DNA of 58,577 bases from a virus: the IMG/VR virus record IMGVR_UViG_3300035698_017630, positions 1 to 58,577 of that record. One strand, 5' to 3'. Positions 5,330 through 51,809 of the stretch are shown here, in pieces. A program made the translations under genes and the position numbers. The notes below the pieces were generated by a model. The model saw only the letters and a list, made by a program, of their open reading frames with translations. It was not told where the DNA came from and made no database searches. Each line of letters opens with the position of its first letter. Positions within the stretch are counted from its first letter, which is position 1.

Positions 5330-6151
5330 ATGTCAAAATTCAAATCGGCAATGGTATTTGGTAGCATGAATGCGGCAGCAGAAATCGCCAAAATTTTAAA
5401 AATAGAAAATATAAGTTGTTTTCCTTGGAACGACGACTTGAAAATGTATCATATTTCGAAATGTTTGTGTATTTCGGAAGAAACAGCTTTAAAATATGCA
5501 AGGTTTACACATTGTGGGTCTGGTTATTATGCGCTTATACCCGAAATTTTAAATGAAAATGTGGTGATGTATAACAAACGGGAAACTCTAGAAATATTAA
5601 ATGCGACTTTTGATGAAGTTGATAGTAAACTCGTTGAAGATCTTTCAAGAATTTTGGAAGAGTTTGTTGGAGTTAAAATCGATGGGCAACCGATGTATAA
5701 TTGTGCCGAAATCATTACCAATTTATGTGAAGACTTGGCCAGGGAAAGCCGAATTGATAAAAAAGTTGACAATTGGATGTTTGGAATTGGTATGACAGAT
5801 ATTATAGCAAGCGGTGCAGTAATAGAGGGTATAAAAATGCAAATAATAAGATCTAAACCAGAGGATCCAGATGTAACTACACTCAAACTGTTTGTGTGGG
5901 ATGGATCGGAAAAAGCGAGGCTGGAAATAGAGGAAAATTTTCAAAATCGTGGATATGCGTTAAAAGTTATTGTTAATGAGGAGAATGAACTTCGAATTGT
6001 TTTCAATAGTCCAGATATTAAAGCTTCTTCCAAACTAAAACTTGGACAGTATTTGGTTGAAACAAAGGATGGGGGATGTTTTTGGAACTACTATTCCAAA
6101 GAAGATAACGCCAAGGATTGGGATCATTTAGATTTTCCAGCCCCTTGGTAA
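5330..6151 (+). CDS. Hypothetical protein, 273 aa
   Basis: First gene after the paired motif B/motif A element, with GGAG upstream of ATG 5330 and a hairpin after its stop, so it is probably its own unit. The protein is soluble-looking, with a mixed N-terminal part (residues 1-75; paired Cys and His around 35-62) and a helical, acidic middle (95-150). The C-terminus is aromatic (FWNYYSK...WDHLDFPAPW). I do not recognise the family. Its position next to a strong promoter suggests substantial expression. Confidence 0.75.
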   Translation: MSKFKSAMVFGSMNAAAEIAKILKIENISCFPWNDDLKMYHISKCLCISEETALKYARFTHCGSGYYALIPEILNENVVMYNKRETLEILNATFDEVDSKLVEDLSRILEEFVGVKIDGQPMYNCAEIITNLCEDLARESRIDKKVDNWMFGIGMTDIIASGAVIEGIKMQIIRSKPEDPDVTTLKLFVWDGSEKARLEIEENFQNRGYALKVIVNEENELRIVFNSPDIKASSKLKLGQYLVETKDGGCFWNYYSKEDNAKDWDHLDFPAPW

Positions 6152-6161
6152 CTCTTATATT

Positions 6162-6198
6162 AAACTCGGCTTACAATCTTCCTTTGTGAGTCGAGTTT
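6162..6198 (+). terminator. Hairpin, probable terminator
   Basis: 14-bp stem AAACTCGGCTTACA / TGTGAGTCGAGTTT with two G-U pairs and a 9-base loop. It begins 10 bases after the 273-aa gene. Only TTTG follows, so termination strength is uncertain. Confidence 0.5.
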
Positions 6199-6243
6199 GT
6201 CCAGTCCAAAGATGATTATTTTTGTTTGGAATTTTTAATCGGA

Positions 6244-6261
6244 TTAACTATATATATTAAA
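6244..6261 (+). promoter_or_regulatory. Motif A promoter element
   Basis: TTAACTATATATATTAAA followed by CAATGTAAAAG, about 55 bases before the start of the 103-aa gene. It matches the 5244 copy over 15 contiguous bases. Confidence 0.55.
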
Positions 6262-6314
6262 CAATGTAAAAGTTGTTAAACGACAATTTAATTTTAAACA
6301 TTGGAGAGTACAAA

Positions 6315-6626
6315 ATGATAAACCGTACATTGAGGTTCGCGTGTGAATGTGCAATGGATGAATTCATGCGAAACGGAAAAACCCCAATGGGTGTAATTGT
6401 ACATTCGAATAATTGGGGATTTGAGTTTTTTACTATCCGGGATGTTGATAACTTGAATGGTCCGGATGAAAGAGAACTTATCATGGGAATGGTATATGAC
6501 GTTAATAAAAATGGGTTTGGTAGATTTGCGCCATCCTCATTTGAAGAGGTTACCGCCTGTGCCAAGAAGTTAGCAAGATCTTTAATTAGAAAAATAAAAC
6601 CAAAAATTGGCATCCCCGCCGTTTAA
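6315..6626 (+). CDS. Hypothetical protein, 103 aa
   Basis: Start at ATG 6315 because GGAGAG lies 7 bases upstream; earlier in-frame TTG codons lack a ribosome site. Small soluble protein with an N-terminal RTLRFACECAMDEFMRNGK, a central IRDVDNLNGPDERELIMGMVYDV, and a basic C-terminus rich in Lys and Pro. Family not recognised. It has its own motif A promoter upstream and a weak inverted repeat at its stop, so it may be a single-gene unit. Confidence 0.65.
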   Translation: MINRTLRFACECAMDEFMRNGKTPMGVIVHSNNWGFEFFTIRDVDNLNGPDERELIMGMVYDVNKNGFGRFAPSSFEEVTACAKKLARSLIRKIKPKIGIPAV

Positions 6627-8257: not shown

Positions 8258-10625
<2,368 letters not shown>

Positions 10626-26705: not shown

Positions 26706-26766
26706 TAATAAGTTATGATTGTATACCATTCACTAATATGTTAATTTATGGAAAGGTTTTTTGATT

Positions 26767-27147
26767 ATGTGGTTATATATTTTTTCTTTTTTGTTTGTTT
26801 TCACGTTCATGTTTCTTGGTTTTTATGTTATAATCAGAAATCAATTATCGATAGATTTCAAAATTATGTTATGCATGGACGAATTGTATAAAGTGAAAGA
26901 AGAAGTTACAACTCAAGATTATAATGATGGTTTTTTCAGAAATAAAAGTATAACAATTGATATGAGCAAAAGAAAGAAAATACCTTTTGCAAAAATTAGA
27001 GAAGTCATTACAAATACATTCACAGATTTTAATTCATTGGAAACAGAAATGAATTCATTATCATTCAAAAATAAATATTTGGTATATTTAGTAAGATATT
27101 GGAAACATAAACATGATTTGGAAACAGAAAAGGGGAAATCCCAATGA
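26767..27147 (+). CDS. Membrane-anchored protein, 126 aa
   Basis: ATG 26767 after GGAAAGG. Residues 1-24 form a membrane span (WLYIFSFLFVFTFMFLGFYV). The rest is cytoplasmic-looking, charged and helical (KEEVTTQDYNDGFF, then a basic tail). First of a run of small membrane proteins. Its stop overlaps the next ATG. Family unknown. Confidence 0.6.
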   Translation: MWLYIFSFLFVFTFMFLGFYVIIRNQLSIDFKIMLCMDELYKVKEEVTTQDYNDGFFRNKSITIDMSKRKKIPFAKIREVITNTFTDFNSLETEMNSLSFKNKYLVYLVRYWKHKHDLETEKGKSQ

Positions 27148-43119: not shown

Positions 43120-43271
43120 AAACCCGAGATAATTTATAATATTGAAAACTCTTTATTGAACTTATCTATAATGGAAACAATTGATGTTATATCTTGGGGT
43201 AACAGGAATGTGTTTTAATTCAAGAAACAAACCTTTTGTTTTAAAATACTCAAATAAAAAGGATGATTAAT

Positions 43272-44096
43272 TTGAAACCAACAATTTGGAAAATAGTCGG
43301 AGATAACGAAAAAACACTTGCATACGATAAGAAAAAGAATATCCTAAACATTTATCCAGGTGATAGGTACATACTTGGAACTTTAATAGCAATGGGATAT
43401 ACTAATAAAGAATTGAAAAAAATCAAGTGGAGATATAAACTAAAAGCTGGTGTTTGTTTTCTCAAATATTGCAAGCGGGGGAGTGAAGTAAGACTTGAAC
43501 TAGATCACTGCAAATTGGAAAATAAAAAAATACAAAGTTTTAGTTTTGATTATAACAAGATCAAAATCATAGAATGGGATAGAGCCCTTCTTTTATCGGA
43601 ACGACTTGCAGATTATGTATTTGTTCCGGGGAGCGATTTTAACAACATATTTGAACCTTTTAAATCAAAACCAATATCCAGAATACGATTGGGTGCTAAT
43701 TGGGTTCTACATGATATGAAAGGGGATATTAGTCATCCCTTACCCGATGATTCTGGTAATTTTGTAGAAATGTTTGATGAGGATTCAAAAATACTCCATA
43801 CGCAATTTCAATCGGCTAAAACTATAATACATGATTTGAACGCTTTAGGGTGGTGGGATGAATTAGAAGAAGTTGAATGGGAATACGTCCTTTCTTCTAT
43901 GACTGTACAGTTAGAATATTCAAAGGGTGGTCTCGTATTCAAAAAACGAGATATACCTCATCTATGTAAAACAAATGAAGTTATTACGTATACAGAAGAA
44001 ATCACAATTGAAAAAATTGAGAAAGATGATATTAATTCAAATACAGAAAAAGTGAAACTCTCAATATGCGATCACCCAAATCCAGAAAAGAGTTAA
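43272..44096 (+). CDS. 'GYT' module protein, two modules
   Basis: About 274 residues. TTG 43272 is preferred (AAGGAT 6-7 bases upstream) because the N-terminus then aligns with its paralogs (KPTIWKIVGDN beside KKQIYQIVGDK). Module 1: IVGDN...LIAMGYTNKELKKIKWRYK, VCFLKYC. Module 2: WVLHDMKG...IIHDLNALGWWDELEEVEWEY, with a following VQLEYSKGG. Each module has an Asp-turn start, a GYT.(E/Q)L helix, an I.W strand and an LEY strand. Family function unknown. Confidence 0.65.
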   Translation: MKPTIWKIVGDNEKTLAYDKKKNILNIYPGDRYILGTLIAMGYTNKELKKIKWRYKLKAGVCFLKYCKRGSEVRLELDHCKLENKKIQSFSFDYNKIKIIEWDRALLLSERLADYVFVPGSDFNNIFEPFKSKPISRIRLGANWVLHDMKGDISHPLPDDSGNFVEMFDEDSKILHTQFQSAKTIIHDLNALGWWDELEEVEWEYVLSSMTVQLEYSKGGLVFKKRDIPHLCKTNEVITYTEEITIEKIEKDDINSNTEKVKLSICDHPNPEKS

Positions 44097-44097
44097 A

Positions 44098-44595
44098 ATG
44101 AGAAAACAAATTCATACGGTTCGGTTTTGTAATAAAGGGACAATTCGAAACGAAAAAATTGAATATGATCAATCATTAATAGATGGACAATCGGTTGCGT
44201 TTGATAGCTTTATGAACCCTATTCAGTTAAATGTCATTTCTAAAGATAAACCAATTGAGTGTTTAAAATCTCTAGGTTATACAGATGAAGAATTGGAAAA
44301 AATTGAATGGAAATTTGAAATAAATTCGGACACTTTAATTCTTGAATATCGACAAGGTCGACTTGAACTCACAGACTGTAAATTGAATAAAAACCATACA
44401 TATAAAATAGATAAATCTAAAATTTTACAAAATGATTTTTTATGTATTATAGAAATCAATGGACCTCTTTGGGATAATTTGCTTATTAAAGATGAAGATT
44501 TTAACAATCAAGCAAAACCGTTCCTAACATCAGAAGATCAATACGAATTGATAGTACCCGCTATATTAGTTCGACTCCAAAAACATTCAAAATAA
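44098..44595 (+). CDS. 'GYT' module protein, one full module plus remnant
   Basis: 165 residues. QIHTVRFCNKG start, LKSLGYTDEELEKIEWKFE, LILEYRQGRLELTDCKL. The block RQGRLELTDCKL is nearly identical to RQDRLELTDCKL in the next gene, also at DNA level (44346-44390 against 44817-44861), so the duplication is recent. The second half is shortened and ends with IVPAILVRLQKHSK. Confidence 0.65.
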   Translation: MRKQIHTVRFCNKGTIRNEKIEYDQSLIDGQSVAFDSFMNPIQLNVISKDKPIECLKSLGYTDEELEKIEWKFEINSDTLILEYRQGRLELTDCKLNKNHTYKIDKSKILQNDFLCIIEINGPLWDNLLIKDEDFNNQAKPFLTSEDQYELIVPAILVRLQKHSK

Positions 44596-44620
44596 TTTAA
44601 AACTCAGAAAAGAGTAAACA

Positions 44621-45442
44621 ATGAAAAAACAAATTTATCAAATTGTTGGTGATAAAGAACAAACAAACGCGAGCGACATTTGTGGAAACCCAATAAAAAT
44701 CACGTCCAATGGGGGAGACATAATTGATAATTTAAAAAAAATGGGTTATACCAATGCTGAGTTAAAAGAAATTAATTGGAGATTGGAAATTGAATCATGC
44801 ACTTTATATTTTGAATATCGACAAGATCGACTTGAACTCACAGACTGTAAATTGGATAAAGACAACTCTTACAAAATTAATCGTTATGAAGTGCTTGAAA
44901 TTGTAAAACGAGATGATTTCATGGTGTCGCCTGATAAGGTTAGTGATTCTTTTCTTACTCAAGATAGTAATTATACTTGTCAATTTAAATCATTTCCCCT
45001 TACCAAAATATACAAAGTTTGCTTGGGAAGTACTCAGGATAGCACATCTCAACATATCGGCGAAAAATGGACTTGTATGGATAGAGTGTATGTGTACGAT
45101 GAGGAGATGAAACTTATGAATTTGAATATTAAACATATAAAAGATGTAATAAAAGAGTTAAAGAATTTGGGGTACACTGATGCACAATTAGCAATAATTA
45201 ACTGGGAATATTTTCTGGAGCATGGTAACGCAACTCTTACATATGTTTTCGATGAACTTGGTACTCTCAATAATAACATGGGTGGGCTTAAATTCAAAAA
45301 CATAAGAATTGATGAGGGATATACGATTACTCAGTATGTCGAAGAAATAGAAATCAAAAATATCAATGATGTTGAAATGGAAGATCATAAATATTTTCCT
45401 TCTGAAAAATTAAAATTGGTTATTAATAACCCAGACTTTTAA
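44621..45442 (+). CDS. 'GYT' module protein, two modules
   Basis: 273 residues. Module 1: QIYQIVGDKEQ, LKKMGYTNAELKEINWRLE, LYFEYRQDRLELTDCKL. Module 2: YVYDEEMKLMNLNI, LKNLGYTDAQLAIINWEYF, ATLTYVF. Both modules keep all pattern positions. The closing block (EIEIKNINDVEMEDHK) resembles that of the 43272 protein. Confidence 0.65.
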   Translation: MKKQIYQIVGDKEQTNASDICGNPIKITSNGGDIIDNLKKMGYTNAELKEINWRLEIESCTLYFEYRQDRLELTDCKLDKDNSYKINRYEVLEIVKRDDFMVSPDKVSDSFLTQDSNYTCQFKSFPLTKIYKVCLGSTQDSTSQHIGEKWTCMDRVYVYDEEMKLMNLNIKHIKDVIKELKNLGYTDAQLAIINWEYFLEHGNATLTYVFDELGTLNNNMGGLKFKNIRIDEGYTITQYVEEIEIKNINDVEMEDHKYFPSEKLKLVINNPDF

Positions 45443-45460
45443 AAGATTCGAGATATTCAA

Positions 45461-45925
45461 ATGGCAACACAAATTCATAAAATTATTTTTAGTTTAGACA
45501 AAGCAATCGTATTAGATACAAGTGGTCTTGTAAGAACTCTCCAAATGGGAATATACTCGGATATAGTTGAGTTTTTAAAAATGAATAATTACACAGAAGA
45601 GGATTTGAAGAAAATTAAATGGGAATTTAAAATAGGAAACGATATATTAATTTTAGACTATATCGATGGTGATTTTAAATTCAGAAATAAAAAAGTCAAA
45701 ACTGAAATTTATAAAATCGTTTGTGCCATAGATAAAGTTTCAATATTTGCACCAGATGGAAATTATATAAATTGGGAAATTTCCGATCATCATACAATAA
45801 TCAAATTGTTACAGAATAAATTGTACACCGAAGAAGAAATAAAAAATATCATATGGAATCTACAAATTGGAAATCGTTGGTTTGATCTTGAATATAAGGA
45901 TGGAGAACTTCAACTTAAAGATTAA
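45461..45925 (+). CDS. 'GYT' module protein, two short modules
   Basis: 154 residues. Module 1: IHKIIFSLDKAIVLDTSG, FLKMNNYTEEDLKKIKWEFK, LILDYIDGDF. Module 2: IYKIVCAIDKVSIFAPDG, LLQNKLYTEEEIKNIIWNLQ, WFDLEYKDGEL. Gly of GYT is replaced (NNYT, KLYT), which makes this the most divergent two-module member. Confidence 0.6.
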   Translation: MATQIHKIIFSLDKAIVLDTSGLVRTLQMGIYSDIVEFLKMNNYTEEDLKKIKWEFKIGNDILILDYIDGDFKFRNKKVKTEIYKIVCAIDKVSIFAPDGNYINWEISDHHTIIKLLQNKLYTEEEIKNIIWNLQIGNRWFDLEYKDGELQLKD

Positions 45926-45942
45926 AAGGGAAAATTTTAAAA

Positions 45943-46203
45943 ATGAACAAACAATCAGACGAACAACAAACTAAGTATCTCTATACTACCGTAAATAATA
46001 TTACAAAAGAACAAGCGAAATTAATAACAATTGGTGTACATGAAATTGTTGGAACTACTGCGATTTTCGAAGAATCCTCAAATGGTTATAGTTTTTACGA
46101 AGGAGATGATCGGGGGGTTTGTATACCATTGCGCTATGTAACAACTTCTTTTATTAATGGAGCCGTTTTCATCCTAAAAAATAAAAAGGAAATAAATAAA
46201 TAA
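45943..46203 (+). CDS. Hypothetical protein, 86 aa
   Basis: ATG 45943 after AAGGGAAA. Not a GYT module. Contains NNITKEQAKLITIGVHEIVG and YEGDDRGVCIPLRYVTTSF. Mixed alpha/beta. It interrupts the GYT gene array. Family unknown. Confidence 0.55.
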   Translation: MNKQSDEQQTKYLYTTVNNITKEQAKLITIGVHEIVGTTAIFEESSNGYSFYEGDDRGVCIPLRYVTTSFINGAVFILKNKKEINK

Positions 46204-46204
46204 A

Positions 46205-46954
46205 TTGAAACCCAAGATCTATAAAGTAATCGCTACATACAATGGAACAGTCGCGTATGATCAAAATAGAAATATCATTAATTTAAATATTTTTCCTCAA
46301 GACAATGTAATACGTGGTTTGAAATCAATTGGTTATAGCGAGAAGGAATTGAAAAACATTATTTGGAACTTCGAGATAAATTCTGGAACGATATTTCTTG
46401 AATATTGGAACGGGAAACTCAGATTTAAAAAATGGGAACTATGGAAACTAGACAGTAAGGCCGCATATAAAGTTGTTCATCATGAAAGTCTTCAGATTTC
46501 AGAATATAAAACTTGGACTTCTCTTGGTTACAAAAATACAAAAATAAAAGATGAATTCATAGTTCCAGATGCTGACTACATCAATATATTAAAACCATTT
46601 GTATATTCCAAACCGAAAAAAATTTACAAAATTATTATGGGAACGGAAAGAATTATATATGATGAGGATATGAATCCCATGGATATACCATTTCTGAATA
46701 GTGATGATATAATAAAATTGTTGAAATCGCGCGGATATACGAACGAAGAGTTAGAAACCGTTTTTTGGGAACTTAAATTGGAATATGGTGTTGTATATCT
46801 TGATTATTTTAAGAATTATCTCAGAATTGAAAAATGGAAGTTAGACAAAAATTATAAAGCTTCGTGCTCACAGATATTCGATATAACCAAAATTAATGAT
46901 GATGGTATTCCCGTAACCATCGAAAATATAGTATTGAACACCATGGATGAATAA
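46205..46954 (+). CDS. 'GYT' module protein, two modules, TTG start
   Basis: 249 residues. TTG 46205 follows AAGGAAATAAATAAA, and the N-terminus aligns with paralogs (KPKIYKVIATYNG). Module 1: LKSIGYSEKELKNIIWNFE, IFLEYWNGKL. Module 2: IIYDEDMNPMDIPF, LKSRGYTNEELETVFWELK, VYLDYFKNYL. Last gene of the + block, followed by a strong terminator. Confidence 0.65.
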   Translation: MKPKIYKVIATYNGTVAYDQNRNIINLNIFPQDNVIRGLKSIGYSEKELKNIIWNFEINSGTIFLEYWNGKLRFKKWELWKLDSKAAYKVVHHESLQISEYKTWTSLGYKNTKIKDEFIVPDADYINILKPFVYSKPKKIYKIIMGTERIIYDEDMNPMDIPFLNSDDIIKLLKSRGYTNEELETVFWELKLEYGVVYLDYFKNYLRIEKWKLDKNYKASCSQIFDITKINDDGIPVTIENIVLNTMDE

Positions 46955-47072: not shown

Positions 47073-47480
47073 TTATTTTATTATCTCATTACCGATATTT
47101 TCTTCGTATGTACCATTATATTCTTGGATTGCTTGTTTGCATTTAAGCAACCACTCATTACTTCGAACAATTAAATATTTTGGCACATCGCTACAAAAAA
47201 GTAATACTTTAAATTTATCACAAAACATTTCAGATTGTCCAGAGGACTGAAGAATGAACCCATTAGATGCTACGGAGCAAGTAGAATCATAATCGCGCTC
47301 GCGCCCAAAATCATAACGAAAACGTGTTTGATGTTTAACAGTTATAATTTTAACAATATCATTATTAAATTTAAATGACTTAACTTCAATAATCAATTTT
47401 TTGTTATCATTATTATATCTCCGAATTAGCATCATTGTATTCTCGAACTGCTTGTCTACAATCTTCAAGCCACTCATCAC
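47073..47480 (-). CDS. 'VPNEKW' family protein, last of a tandem array
   Basis: 135 residues as a continuous frame, but the family domain starts only at about residue 27: KKLIIEVKSFKFNNDIVKII. The first 26 residues lie over the end of the previous paralog and may not be translated. The better ribosome site (GGAG) points to ATG 47410, which is out of frame by one at an A6 run. Then TVKHQTRFRYDF, NGFILQSSGQ, and YLIVRSNEWLLKCKQAIQEY with the NGT end. Function unknown. Confidence 0.6.
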   Translation of the reverse strand: MMSGLKIVDKQFENTMMLIRRYNNDNKKLIIEVKSFKFNNDIVKIITVKHQTRFRYDFGRERDYDSTCSVASNGFILQSSGQSEMFCDKFKVLLFCSDVPKYLIVRSNEWLLKCKQAIQEYNGTYEENIGNEIIK

Positions 47481-47720
47481 TTGGAATCAAATGAAGTTCG
47501 AGTCCTTCACTGAATGCATGATCGGGGCACATTCAACCTATCAACAAAAGCACCAGTATGTCCATATGACTGCAAAATAAAATCATTTGATGCCTTAAAA
47601 AAAATACTACCGTTACCAAAACTATGACAAAAATGACTTTGATATTTAAACCCCAAAACCTTAAAGGGGAGGTTATTAAATTTAAAAGTCTTAACTTCAA
47701 GTACTAACTTTTTTTTTCAT
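47413..47720 (-). pseudogene. 'VPNEKW' family copy broken by two frameshifts
   Basis: ATG 47720 overlaps the previous gene's stop (ATGA). The A9 run just after it shifts the frame. The next frame reads KKKLVLEVKTFKFNN...SNDFILQSYGHTGAF up to NVP; at a C4 run the frame shifts again to DHAFSEGLELHLIPSDEW, LEDCRQAVREYNDANSEI and TAA at 47413. With both runs corrected, the gene aligns over its full length with its paralogs. Confidence 0.65.
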
Positions 47721-48115
47721 TCAATTACCTCAATTAAATCTTCCATATCATTATCAGTAACTGTACCATTGTATTCCTGAACCGCACGTCTACACGCAAC
47801 AAGCCAGGCTTTACTTGGAATAACATGATATGTATTTGGTGAATCTTTGCCATCTCTTACCCCCAAACCATATTGTCTTATTTCATCACAACCACCAAAT
47901 ATAACAAAATCATTTGATGCCTTGAATCTACCACCAAAATGCCATACACCATCCCCAAGGGGATAACATACAAATTCCTCATCAAAATGAGTTTGTTCGG
48001 AAACAGTCATAATTTGAATTATATCATTATCAAAATAAATCGTTTTAATTCTCAAAATCAAATGTCTTTTTTCATGTCTTCTTTCATATTTTGTATCTTC
48101 AAATTCCGGATTCAT
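47717..48115 (-). CDS. 'VPNEKW' family protein, intact
   Basis: 132 residues; its ATG overlaps the previous stop by 4 bases. KRHLILRIKTIYFDNDIIQI, MTVSEQTHFDEEFVCYPLG, SNDFVIFGGCDEI, HVIPSKAWLVACRRAVQEYN and GT. The most complete member of the array. Looks like a small beta-sandwich followed by a helix. Function unknown. Confidence 0.65.
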   Translation of the reverse strand: MNPEFEDTKYERRHEKRHLILRIKTIYFDNDIIQIMTVSEQTHFDEEFVCYPLGDGVWHFGGRFKASNDFVIFGGCDEIRQYGLGVRDGKDSPNTYHVIPSKAWLVACRRAVQEYNGTVTDNDMEDLIEVIE

Positions 48116-48514
48116 TCAATTACCTCAATTTTTCCATCACAACTCTCTTGTGCACTAAGTGTACCATTGTATTCTTTAACTGCTCGTTCACAATACATGA
48201 GCCACTTCTCGTTTGGAACAACACAATATATGGGTTTTGAATCTGGCATTTCTTTTACATTAAAACCATTTTGACGTATACAACTTTTTCCACTGGAAAT
48301 CAAAAGAAAATTATCAGAAGATTTAAATTGATTAAGAAAATTTGTATTTGTTCCTCCCCTCGGACACACAACAAACAAAATTATGATCAAAATGAGTTTG
48401 TTTGGAAACGGTTATAATTTTAATTACTTCATTCTCAAAGAAAACAGTTTTAACTTTTAATACTAAGTGTCTTATTATCCGTTTAGTATAAAAGTTTGGA
48501 TGTGATGGATTCAT
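48112..48514 (-). CDS. 'VPNEKW' family copy with one frameshift
   Basis: ATG 48514 gives IIRHLVLKVKTVFFENEVIK and IITVSKQTHFDHNFVC, then the frame is lost in a TGTTGTGTGT stretch near 48365. The other frame resumes with PRGGTNTNFLNQFKSSDNFL and CVVPNEKWLMYCERAVKEYN, ending with TGA 48112. A one-base change would restore the family sequence. It overlaps both neighbours by ATGA. Confidence 0.6.
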
Positions 48515-48873
48515 TGTATTATCTCCAATTCCAAATCATCGTTATTGATGCTCAGTTTTTGTATAATTTCATTTTCAGGTACATCATTGTATTCCATAAC
48601 CGCTCTTTTGAAATCGTGAAACCATGTCTCATTTGGGATAGGTTCGTATTGAGTCATTTCGTATCTGGTAGCTTTTACATTATACTCACCAGATCCGATA
48701 CCACTTGGGGCCCTTGATTGTAAAACAAACCCCGTGGATGATTCAAATTTTGAATATTCATCCTCCGAAAATTGCATTTTGTAATGAGTTTGTGTTAAGA
48801 TTTTTACGAATTTGATTTCTTCATTTTTAAATCCCGTTGTTCTAACAACACCAAACATCAAATGTCTTTTCAT
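48511..48873 (-). CDS. 'VPNEKW' family protein, first of the array
   Basis: 120 residues. KRHLMFGVVRTTGFKNEEIK, ILTQTHYKMQF, FVLQSRAPSG, EPIPNETWFHDFKRAVMEYN, then an acidic extension. Intact. All five members of the array are joined by ATGA overlaps, pointing to stepwise tandem duplication within one transcript. Confidence 0.65.
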   Translation of the reverse strand: MKRHLMFGVVRTTGFKNEEIKFVKILTQTHYKMQFSEDEYSKFESSTGFVLQSRAPSGIGSGEYNVKATRYEMTQYEPIPNETWFHDFKRAVMEYNDVPENEIIQKLSINNDDLELEIIQ

Positions 48874-49241: not shown

Positions 49242-49919
49242 TTATAATGGCATTACAATTACATAAGTGTTTTTTACTAATTGCCTATCCAAGCGTAAAA
49301 GCCAATTTCTTACAATATTACTATTTGCTTCAAGCATTTCATCAATACTCGCATCTTTATAAATAGTAATAAATATTCCCTCAATACCTTCCTCAGAATC
49401 ATTCTCAAACTCTATTGTGATTTTTTTGAATTTATTGTTTAACAATCCAGAGATTATTCTTTTCCCATCAATTAATAATTCGATCAGTTCTTGTTGAGAA
49501 TAAAGAAATTCGAATATCCGATTTTTATTTATTAATTCATATTCTTTATCAAGATCTTTAAACCTTAACTGCTTTACCATATTTGATCCATATTCAGTCC
49601 ATAATTCATTCTTTATTAAAAGTTCTTTAACTCTGGATATATTTACAAATTCGATCTTATTCAGAAATGGATATGGGGACGTATATTTCATAAAATATGC
49701 AAATGCTTCATGTGCAAAAGAAGGACTAATTTGTTTAACATTATCAAAATCTAAAACAATATACTCTTCATTAAAATCCCACGCATCTTTCCGATCCAAA
49801 TCCTTTAAGTATTTATTTTTAAAATCGATAGCTGTGTGTTTCCCATCCCCACGCGATTCATCTTTGTTTTTAAGAAGATGATAAAAATCTTTACCAACAT
49901 CAATTACTTTTGTTTTCAT
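49242..49919 (-). CDS. STAS-like DUF4325 domain protein
   Basis: 225 residues. Residues about 45-85 hold YIVLDFDNVKQISPSFAHEA followed by FAYFMK, the signature of the DUF4325 STAS-like domain (DF..V..I.PSF..EA). The rest is helical (ISRVKELLIKNELW, FLYSQQELIELLIDGK) with a C-terminal IRNWLLRLDR-like segment and VIVMPL. DUF4325 proteins often pair with histidine-kinase-type ATPases in bacterial defence or signalling loci; none is seen here. Start ATG 49919 overlaps the next gene's stop. Confidence 0.6.
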   Translation of the reverse strand: MKTKVIDVGKDFYHLLKNKDESRGDGKHTAIDFKNKYLKDLDRKDAWDFNEEYIVLDFDNVKQISPSFAHEAFAYFMKYTSPYPFLNKIEFVNISRVKELLIKNELWTEYGSNMVKQLRFKDLDKEYELINKNRIFEFLYSQQELIELLIDGKRIISGLLNNKFKKITIEFENDSEEGIEGIFITIYKDASIDEMLEANSNIVRNWLLRLDRQLVKNTYVIVMPL

Positions 49920-50379: not shown

Positions 50380-50856
50380 TCATCTTATTTGAGGATTACA
50401 AATAACAACCTCAATATTTTTATCCAAACAATCCAAATATAATTCCATATAATATAAAACGGTAGTCCACTTTAATCCTCCCAAACCACATCCCAATGCA
50501 GGAATTCCAATTGATAGAATATCAAGTTCAACCACATTCTTTCTTATTGATACAAGTAAGTTTCTTATATAAACTAACGTACTTTTTTCTCTCCAATGAT
50601 TCTTTGTTGCACAGTTAAATATATAATGTGGAAATTGCACAAATTCATTATTTGATTGATAACGTTTACATATAAATATTTCACCTGGGAGAAGTTTCTT
50701 ATTGAGACAATATAATTTATACTGTTCAAAATTATCAGGGTATTTGTTTTTAAATTCAAGAGCCAAACCTTTTCCACTCACCCCAATACAATTTACAGGA
50801 TTAACAATTGCCTGAACATTTATATTCATAATACTACTATTTGTATAGTAAATCAT
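50380..50856 (-). CDS. DarG-like macrodomain protein
   Basis: 158 residues, essentially one macrodomain. AIVNPVNCIGVSGKGLALEF (16-35) is the ADP-ribose loop. YPDNFEQYKLYCLNKKLLPG, NCATKNHWREKS (81-92) and IPALGCGLGGLKW (118-130) are the marks of the DarG-type subgroup. These remove ADP-ribose that DarT toxins add to thymidine in DNA. GGAG lies 14 bases before ATG 50856. There is no DarT neighbour. DarTG is an anti-phage system, so a phage copy would be expected to protect phage DNA from it; that role is inferred. An RNA- or protein-directed ADP-ribose hydrolase is the alternative. Confidence 0.8.
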   Translation of the reverse strand: MIYYTNSSIMNINVQAIVNPVNCIGVSGKGLALEFKNKYPDNFEQYKLYCLNKKLLPGEIFICKRYQSNNEFVQFPHYIFNCATKNHWREKSTLVYIRNLLVSIRKNVVELDILSIGIPALGCGLGGLKWTTVLYYMELYLDCLDKNIEVVICNPQIR

Positions 50857-50884
50857 TTTTTATTCAATGTCTCCTATATTCAAC

Positions 50885-50926
50885 GATCTGGTTAATAACT
50901 GTGTGTGTACATGTAATAACCAGATC
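50885..50926 (-). other. Hairpin in the leader of the macrodomain gene
   Basis: GATCTGGTTA / TAACCAGATC, a perfect 10-bp stem with a 22-base loop, 28 bases upstream of the macrodomain start. No T-run. May mark mRNA processing or control of this gene. The rest of 50927-51039 holds no gene I can support. Confidence 0.4.
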
Positions 50927-51039: not shown

Positions 51040-51783
51040 TCAAGAACAAATAAAATCTTCAAGTTCTTCCTTCCTCACCTTTTTACTTTTCTTTTTCTTA
51101 CAAATCATATTGTTTTCACGTCTTAACTTAGCATTCTTTTTCTTTAAATCAACATTGCTAATTTGTAGTTTATAAAATTTCAAAACTTCTGTAATAACCC
51201 CAATATCAAATCGAGAAAGACGTTTGGTCAAATATTCATTTTGCGTTTCCAGTTTTGCGTTTGCAGATGTCAAATTTTCATTTTCGATTTTTAATTTAAA
51301 ATTGTTTTTACGTAATTCTTCTAATTCTTTTTTTGTATCATTATGCAACCATTCGCTCAAACCTTCATTAATAGGCGGAAAAATTTGTTTGGCTCTTGGT
51401 TGTAACTCATCCAGAAAATCGCATACGAGTTGTCGCTGTACAACAGGCATCAAACCATCGAAACAATCCGCTTTAAATTTCTGTGAATCATCCCATTTAA
51501 GAGATTGAATTCCCGACAATTGTTCGGATAATACCAATTCGCAATTAGAAAATTCAATATCTTTATATAATTGAGTCGGACAAATCACCGTAGTTTGAAA
51601 ATCGTCACTAACAATTAAAAATTCATATAATTGTACAGTCTGAACAATCCCTCTTTCAATTATCATTAATGTTTCATCATCTCTACTTACTTCAATTCGA
51701 TAAGGATTTTCTTCAAAATAATCAACAATCTCTTCGTATTGATCGTCGGATCCTGTCCACATCGTATACTCGTATTTTTTCAT
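51040..51783 (-). CDS. Coiled-coil protein, 247 aa
   Basis: ATG 51783. N-terminal beta-rich half (residues 1-95: MIIERGIVQTVQLYEFLIVS), then a helical half with a long coiled coil (about 145-190: LKIENENLTSANAKLETQNE). Basic C-terminus (KKKKSKKVRKEELEDF). Position 30-50 shows GSDDQYEEIVDYF near the start. Function unknown. It is the second gene of the minus block when read from the promoter at 52.2 kb. Confidence 0.6.
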   Translation of the reverse strand: MKKYEYTMWTGSDDQYEEIVDYFEENPYRIEVSRDDETLMIIERGIVQTVQLYEFLIVSDDFQTTVICPTQLYKDIEFSNCELVLSEQLSGIQSLKWDDSQKFKADCFDGLMPVVQRQLVCDFLDELQPRAKQIFPPINEGLSEWLHNDTKKELEELRKNNFKLKIENENLTSANAKLETQNEYLTKRLSRFDIGVITEVLKFYKLQISNVDLKKKNAKLRRENNMICKKKKSKKVRKEELEDFICS

Positions 51784-51809
51784 TATAACAATTCTCAATT
51801 TTTTAAGGT

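Follow-up and report, generated by a model that had tools for sequence, protein, structure and literature searches.

A stand-alone DarG-class macrodomain in a viral genome fragment is a candidate eraser of DarT marks

DarTG is a phage defense that works by modifying DNA; phage DNA replication is blocked by it, and anti-DarT factors occur in phages (PMC11481870). The known phage answers are binding of DarT or an enzyme of a different fold. A gene in a 58,577-nucleotide (nt) viral sequence (positions 1 to 58,577 of IMG/VR record IMGVR_UViG_3300035698_017630; here, the window) raises the question of whether a phage may carry a hydrolase of the DarG type on its own and what such an enzyme would do during infection. 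The first-pass annotation of this locus had described a DarG-like macrodomain without DarT and proposed that it serves in counter-defense. The open reading frame lies on the minus strand exactly where it had been placed (Table 1), and all four peptides quoted from it (NPVNCIGVSGKGLALEF, FEQYKLYC, TKNHWREKS, and GCGLGGLKW) are present in the translation.

Table 1. Features of the window discussed in the text
Feature	Position	Strand	Remarks
Stand-alone DarG-class macrodomain gene	50380..50856	-	ATG at 50856, stop at 50380; 158 aa; intact
AGGAG, candidate ribosome-binding site	50871..50875	-	14 nt 5′ of the ATG; spacing above ideal
NPVN motif, residues 19-22	50791..50802	-	N22 = TaqDarG N22; P20 in place of DarG T20
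TKNHW motif, residues 84-88	50593..50607	-	K85 = TaqDarG catalytic K80; W88 = W83 (alignment)
GCGLGGLKW ADP-ribose-binding loop, residues 122-130	50467..50493	-	Without TARG1-type Asp125
Panacea (SocA/DUF4065) antitoxin-domain protein, 258 aa	25901..26677	+	PF13274, E value of 6e-18

The protein was recognized by the Pfam Macro profile (E value of 2e-15), by the PHROG 335 profile (E value of 1.2e-25), and, over residues 1 to 156, by the PADLOC DarG model (E value of 7.1e-49), which was matched at positions 1 to 146 of 329 and hence in its macrodomain half only. The best sequence matches in the PDB were the crystal structures of the DarG macrodomains of Thermus aquaticus (TaqDarG) and Mycobacterium tuberculosis (E values of approximately 1e-27). 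An AlphaFold (AF2) model built from 38 aligned relatives reached a pLDDT of 95.4, and the solved structure closest to this model was T. aquaticus DarG with ADP-ribose (5m3e; Z score of 27.1, 1.0 Å over 150 residues, 37% identity), followed by M. tuberculosis DarG (Z score of 26.9) and T. africanus DarTG. TARG1 and SCO6735, which are ALC1-like macrodomains, share the fold at about 20% identity, and TARG1 ranked far below the DarGs (Z score of 20.1). Collectively, the profile and structure comparisons identify the product as an intact DarG-class macrodomain, with a match far above chance level.

Other assignments fared less well. A macrodomain of the MacroD/YmdB type could be discarded, since DarG is closer in both structure and sequence (YmdB, Z score of 18.1 and 13% identity, versus 27.1 and 37% for DarG). 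The label "phosphatase" attached to PHROG 335 finds no support in the closest structures and is probably misleading for the stand-alone branch. In a phylogenetic tree, we looked for the grouping with unrelated macrodomains that would have spoken against the DarG-like assignment of the first-pass annotation; instead, the window protein was placed within the DarG-class sequences, to the exclusion of TARG1 and MacroD, and the assignment was borne out by profile, structure, and active-site alignment for a single-domain protein. Support for the exact position of the window protein is weak and branches are long, and the members from phiEco32 and the Agricanvirus phages sit on longer branches.

The likeness to the DarG macrodomains of T. 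aquaticus and M. tuberculosis (5m3e, 5m31, and 5m3i) extends from the fold to the catalytic lysine, N22, W83, and the glycine loop. In TaqDarG, K80 is essential, N22A is the next most damaging substitution, and K29 and G119 matter as well (PMC5179494). In the alignment, the window protein retains each of the TaqDarG residues K29, K80, N22, T79, H82, W83, G117, G119, and G121, and their equivalents include K85, N22, K29, W88, G122, G124, and G126. TARG1 relies on a Lys84/Asp125 dyad, and SCO6735 has Gln85 where the lysine stands; in the window protein, the position of Asp125 is occupied by Gly126, which leaves the dyad incomplete and removes TARG1 as an identity for this protein. With the key TaqDarG residues kept and Asp125 absent as it is in DarG, the protein looks like an active DarG-type enzyme. 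Its net charge of +5, compared with a mean of approximately +2 among its relatives, is compatible with nucleic-acid binding and decides nothing.

The pocket nevertheless departs from that of DarG. The window protein has Pro20, Glu34, and Ala120 where DarG has Thr, Gln, and Pro, respectively, and it carries a five-residue insertion ahead of the TK motif. At position 20, which contacts ADP-ribose, Thr (or Ser/Ala) would be expected of a DarG, and DarT-paired DarGs read NTVN; thus, the quoted peptides do mark the protein as DarG class, while NPVN is atypical of DarG itself. Pro20 was shared by the window protein and 29 of 55 stand-alone proteins versus none of 104 DarGs, and it was absent from the motif-bearing members of the evenly drawn cellular sample described below. 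Changes at positions 31, 34, and 115 accompany it (PLEA in the window protein versus TIQP in 76 DarGs), a comparison that is a description rather than a statistical test, the sequences being related and the stand-alone forms not forming one clade. Relative to DarG, the stand-alone branch thus shows T20P, Q34E, and P115A (window position 120), the first two at ADP-ribose-contacting residues. These linked changes may be inherited from an ancestor or may mark a change in the ligand that the pocket accommodates, and on these alignments NPVN distinguishes the stand-alone phage branch from true DarG.

The second half of the first-pass description, the lack of DarT, also held for the window. Neither the Pfam DarT model (PF14487) nor our own DarT profile, run against all six frames of the 58.6 kb, gave a significant match (best E value of 0.18 for the latter), and an analogous profile of the DarG C-terminal domain (CTD) likewise found nothing significant in the six frames (best E value of 0.74). 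The 158-residue frame ends right after the macrodomain, without the DarT-binding CTD. Hence, in contrast to the DarG genes of T. aquaticus and M. tuberculosis, the window gene has neither of the two features of a DarTG pair, a CTD and a darT gene directly upstream. Since the window is a linear virus fragment, a DarT might lie elsewhere in the genome.

A search of viral contigs revealed no close relatives of the macrodomain gene and, judged by the tail sheath, none of the phage itself; the best named phages by tail sheath, phiR1-37 and the AR9-like jumbo phages, are only about 27% identical. More distant relatives of the macrodomain are present in 255 named phage records. Among the 80 best viral loci, 50 held the short stand-alone form without DarT and 30 held complete DarTG pairs, in which the two genes are adjacent and DarG is approximately 350 residues long with its CTD. 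DarT was found in none of the 50 whole records carrying the short form, several of which were deposited as complete genomes. The window gene resembles in this respect the PHROG 335 phage macrodomains (phiEco32 gp37, Eowyn, Agricanvirus, and Vibrio phages), which are single-domain proteins with no DarT in the record; labeled "phosphatase" or "Appr-1-p processing," they are divergent, at approximately 32 to 38% identity to the window protein. The hypothesis that all stand-alone forms constitute one clade was rejected (AU test, P = 0.001; 13 changes), and therefore the short form has been gained or lost on several occasions.

Cells presented a different picture. In 592 genomes drawn evenly from two bacterial phyla, we obtained 42 strong matches, 39 of which adjoin DarT, and two of the three remaining ones retain the CTD; the best 80 genome-contig loci, chosen by similarity, agreed with this sample. 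The class therefore appears tied to DarT chemistry in cells: it travels with DarT in the sampled cells and is often alone in phages. For this gene, the analysis shows the fold, the family, the catalytic residues, the absence of the partner domain and of the toxin from the window, and how widely phages carry this form. In a raw tally with no background rate, mainly DNA-handling genes surround the viral stand-alone genes: DNA methylases, UvsX/RecA, exonucleases, DNA polymerase, and Mom. The families listed for these neighbors did not include an ADP-ribosyltransferase, a sirtuin, or KptA. As a separate observation, some DarT-paired DarGs (from a Klebsiella plasmid, L013, and from viral loci of the L051/L077 type) have a C-terminal part that does not match the usual DarG CTD, and the DarT-binding half may therefore have been exchanged in some DarG lineages.

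The best explanation of the gene, and one that we regard as fairly probable, is counter-defense against DarTG through de-ADP-ribosylation of thymidine. In a host armed with a thymidine-modifying DarTG (DarT2), DarT would place ADP-ribose on thymine bases of single-stranded phage DNA; the gene product, as a single-domain DarG-class ADP-ribosyl glycohydrolase, would take it off during infection, so that phage replication could continue. We infer the substrate (thymidine-linked ADP-ribose), the timing, and the counter-defense role. Because the DarT-binding CTD is absent, the protein would not bind DarT but would repair the DNA enzymatically, relying on K85 and N22. The TaqDarG macrodomain alone, without its CTD, rescues cells from DarT, and the K80A variant does not (PMC5179494), which argues that removal of the mark suffices without the CTD; DarT toxicity is likewise relieved by SCO6735, a distant relative (PMC9411070).

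In its proposed role as a phage answer to DarTG, the gene is comparable to the anti-DarT factors AdfB (ICP1 gp145) and AdfA (of RB69) (PMC11481870). It differs from AdfB, a protein of 77 residues that blocks DarT, probably through direct interaction, and is not a macrodomain enzyme (PMC11481870). Erasing the mark with a stand-alone DarG-class hydrolase, if this is what the protein does, would be the simplest possible answer to DarTG. A phage NADAR protein, AdfN, reportedly acts as an orphan antitoxin against DarTG1; like the window gene product, it is a stand-alone, antitoxin-like, phage-borne enzyme, but one with the NADAR fold and directed at a guanine base.

Macrodomains are common in phages: Iyer et al. 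found them in approximately 40% of medium phages and 56% of jumbo phages, and they have already proposed that some may oppose the ADP-ribosylation of DNA by toxin-antitoxin systems (PMC9503650). A paper testing a phage macrodomain against DarTG was not found in the largely open-access literature searched. The gene makes a good candidate, but one of a type already known and common in phages rather than a new phenomenon; under this proposal, an imprecise "phage phosphatase" annotation would become a counter-defense family that can be tested, with NPVN as its sequence mark.

The altered pocket (T20P, Q34E, and P115A) counts against this proposal and may signal another ADP-ribose substrate. The protein might instead target small soluble ADP-ribose derivatives, either by degrading or soaking up signals of the TIR/Thoeris type or by clearing what NAD+ depletion or RNA repair leaves behind. 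Iyer et al. favor such soluble targets for phage macrodomains generally, with DNA as the exception (PMC9503650), the pocket residues are unlike those of DarG, and the 118 neighbor genes include one YpsA/SLOG, one NUDIX, and one RNA ligase gene. However, by family and structure the closest proteins by a wide margin are the DNA-acting DarGs and not MacroD/YmdB or Appr-1′′-p enzymes, and no KptA, 2H, sirtuin, or TIR protein was seen among the neighbor families listed or the scanned window proteins, so we consider a small-molecule target unlikely. Slightly less probable still is the removal of ADP-ribose from other macromolecules, such as proteins of the host or the phage, mRNA or structured RNA, or guanine or uracil bases, placed there by other ADP-ribosyltransferase defenses. 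Such defenses exist, among them the mRNA-modifying CmdTAC (PMC11618068), and SCO6735 works on both protein and DNA; the same study, however, sets SCO6735 apart from DarG where protein substrates are concerned (PMC9411070), and the Lys/Asp dyad that TARG1 uses for protein substrates is incomplete here, with Gly at the position of Asp125. Finally, and very improbably, the gene may belong to a DarTG or DarT-like toxin-antitoxin pair of the phage, with a toxin gene beyond the ends of the fragment or too divergent to detect: the window is a fragment and 30 of the 80 best viral loci hold complete DarTG, but complete pairs consist of neighboring genes, with a DarG of approximately 350 residues that includes its CTD, whereas the window gene is short and alone and the whole records of its relatives also lack DarT.

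Beyond the macrodomain gene, the window encodes an antitoxin-domain protein of the Panacea family (Table 1) whose fold matches the DarG CTD. A profile-profile comparison of 44 Panacea domains with 102 DarG CTDs yielded a P value of 1.3e-5 and a probability of 81%, compared with 0.4% at most for the controls (unrelated profiles and eight column shuffles). A repeat with a 39-row alignment gave a P value of 2.4e-5, and 40-row subsamples on the DarG side gave P values of 4e-5 to 3e-4, versus 0.0018 for the best of 30 shuffles. When an AlphaFold model of the phage Panacea protein was compared with the whole PDB, the top match was the DarG CTD in the M. tuberculosis DarTG complex (7yk3, chains B and D), with a Z score of 8.4 versus 4.1 for the next match; Foldseek also ranked the DarG CTD first, with a weak E value of 0.71 and a probability of 0.54. 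Pfam Panacea had no direct match on the DarG CTDs, and the link therefore rests on the profile-profile and structure comparisons. On these grounds, the DarT-binding CTD of DarG is likely homologous to Panacea, as a divergent Panacea domain; no paper stating this homology was found in the literature searched. If true, the link would place DarG inside a large modular antitoxin network.

It is tempting to see in the two window genes a split DarG, in which the macrodomain and the Panacea protein jointly counter DarT by repair and binding and DarG itself is an old macrodomain-Panacea fusion, but we give this reading very little credence. The phage Panacea protein is an ordinary one (approximately 31 to 42% identical to other Panacea proteins), its gene lies 24 kb from the macrodomain gene, and the two occur together in only 2 of 50 comparable records besides the window, so that a functional pairing is not supported. 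In viral contig IMGVR_UViG_2756170199_000004 (L018), a stand-alone NPVN macrodomain (6001-6498) and a Panacea gene (8329-8916) are approximately 2 kb apart. Directly 3′ of the Panacea gene of the window, positions 26761-27147 (+) encode a small protein that is hydrophobic over a stretch near its N terminus, which is likely a membrane helix; several PanT toxins are membrane proteins, and this product could be the toxin partner of the Panacea protein or unrelated to it.

Several further elements were observed around these genes. Just upstream of the macrodomain gene, a perfect 10-bp inverted repeat at 50885-50926 (GATCTGGTTA ... TAACCAGATC) may form a terminator or regulatory hairpin, and the upstream open reading frame at 51040-51798 matched neither Pfam nor PHROG. 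A 225-residue DUF4325 (STAS-like) protein (49242-49919, -; PF14213, E value of 7e-11), without a PHROG match, is encoded on the same strand, with the macrodomain gene three genes upstream. By eye, the translations revealed two runs of tandem paralogous small proteins (43263-46954, +, and 47073-48873, -), and a complete NAD+-dependent DNA ligase is encoded at 8589-10625 (+; PHROG 3869, E value of 5e-182). Outside the window, an Erythrobacter aureus plasmid (L195, 2200-6122) carries a gene that combines a DprA/SLOG-like part (weak match) with a C-terminal macrodomain; no more than 4 kb downstream are two SocA/Panacea genes and one for an RNase H.
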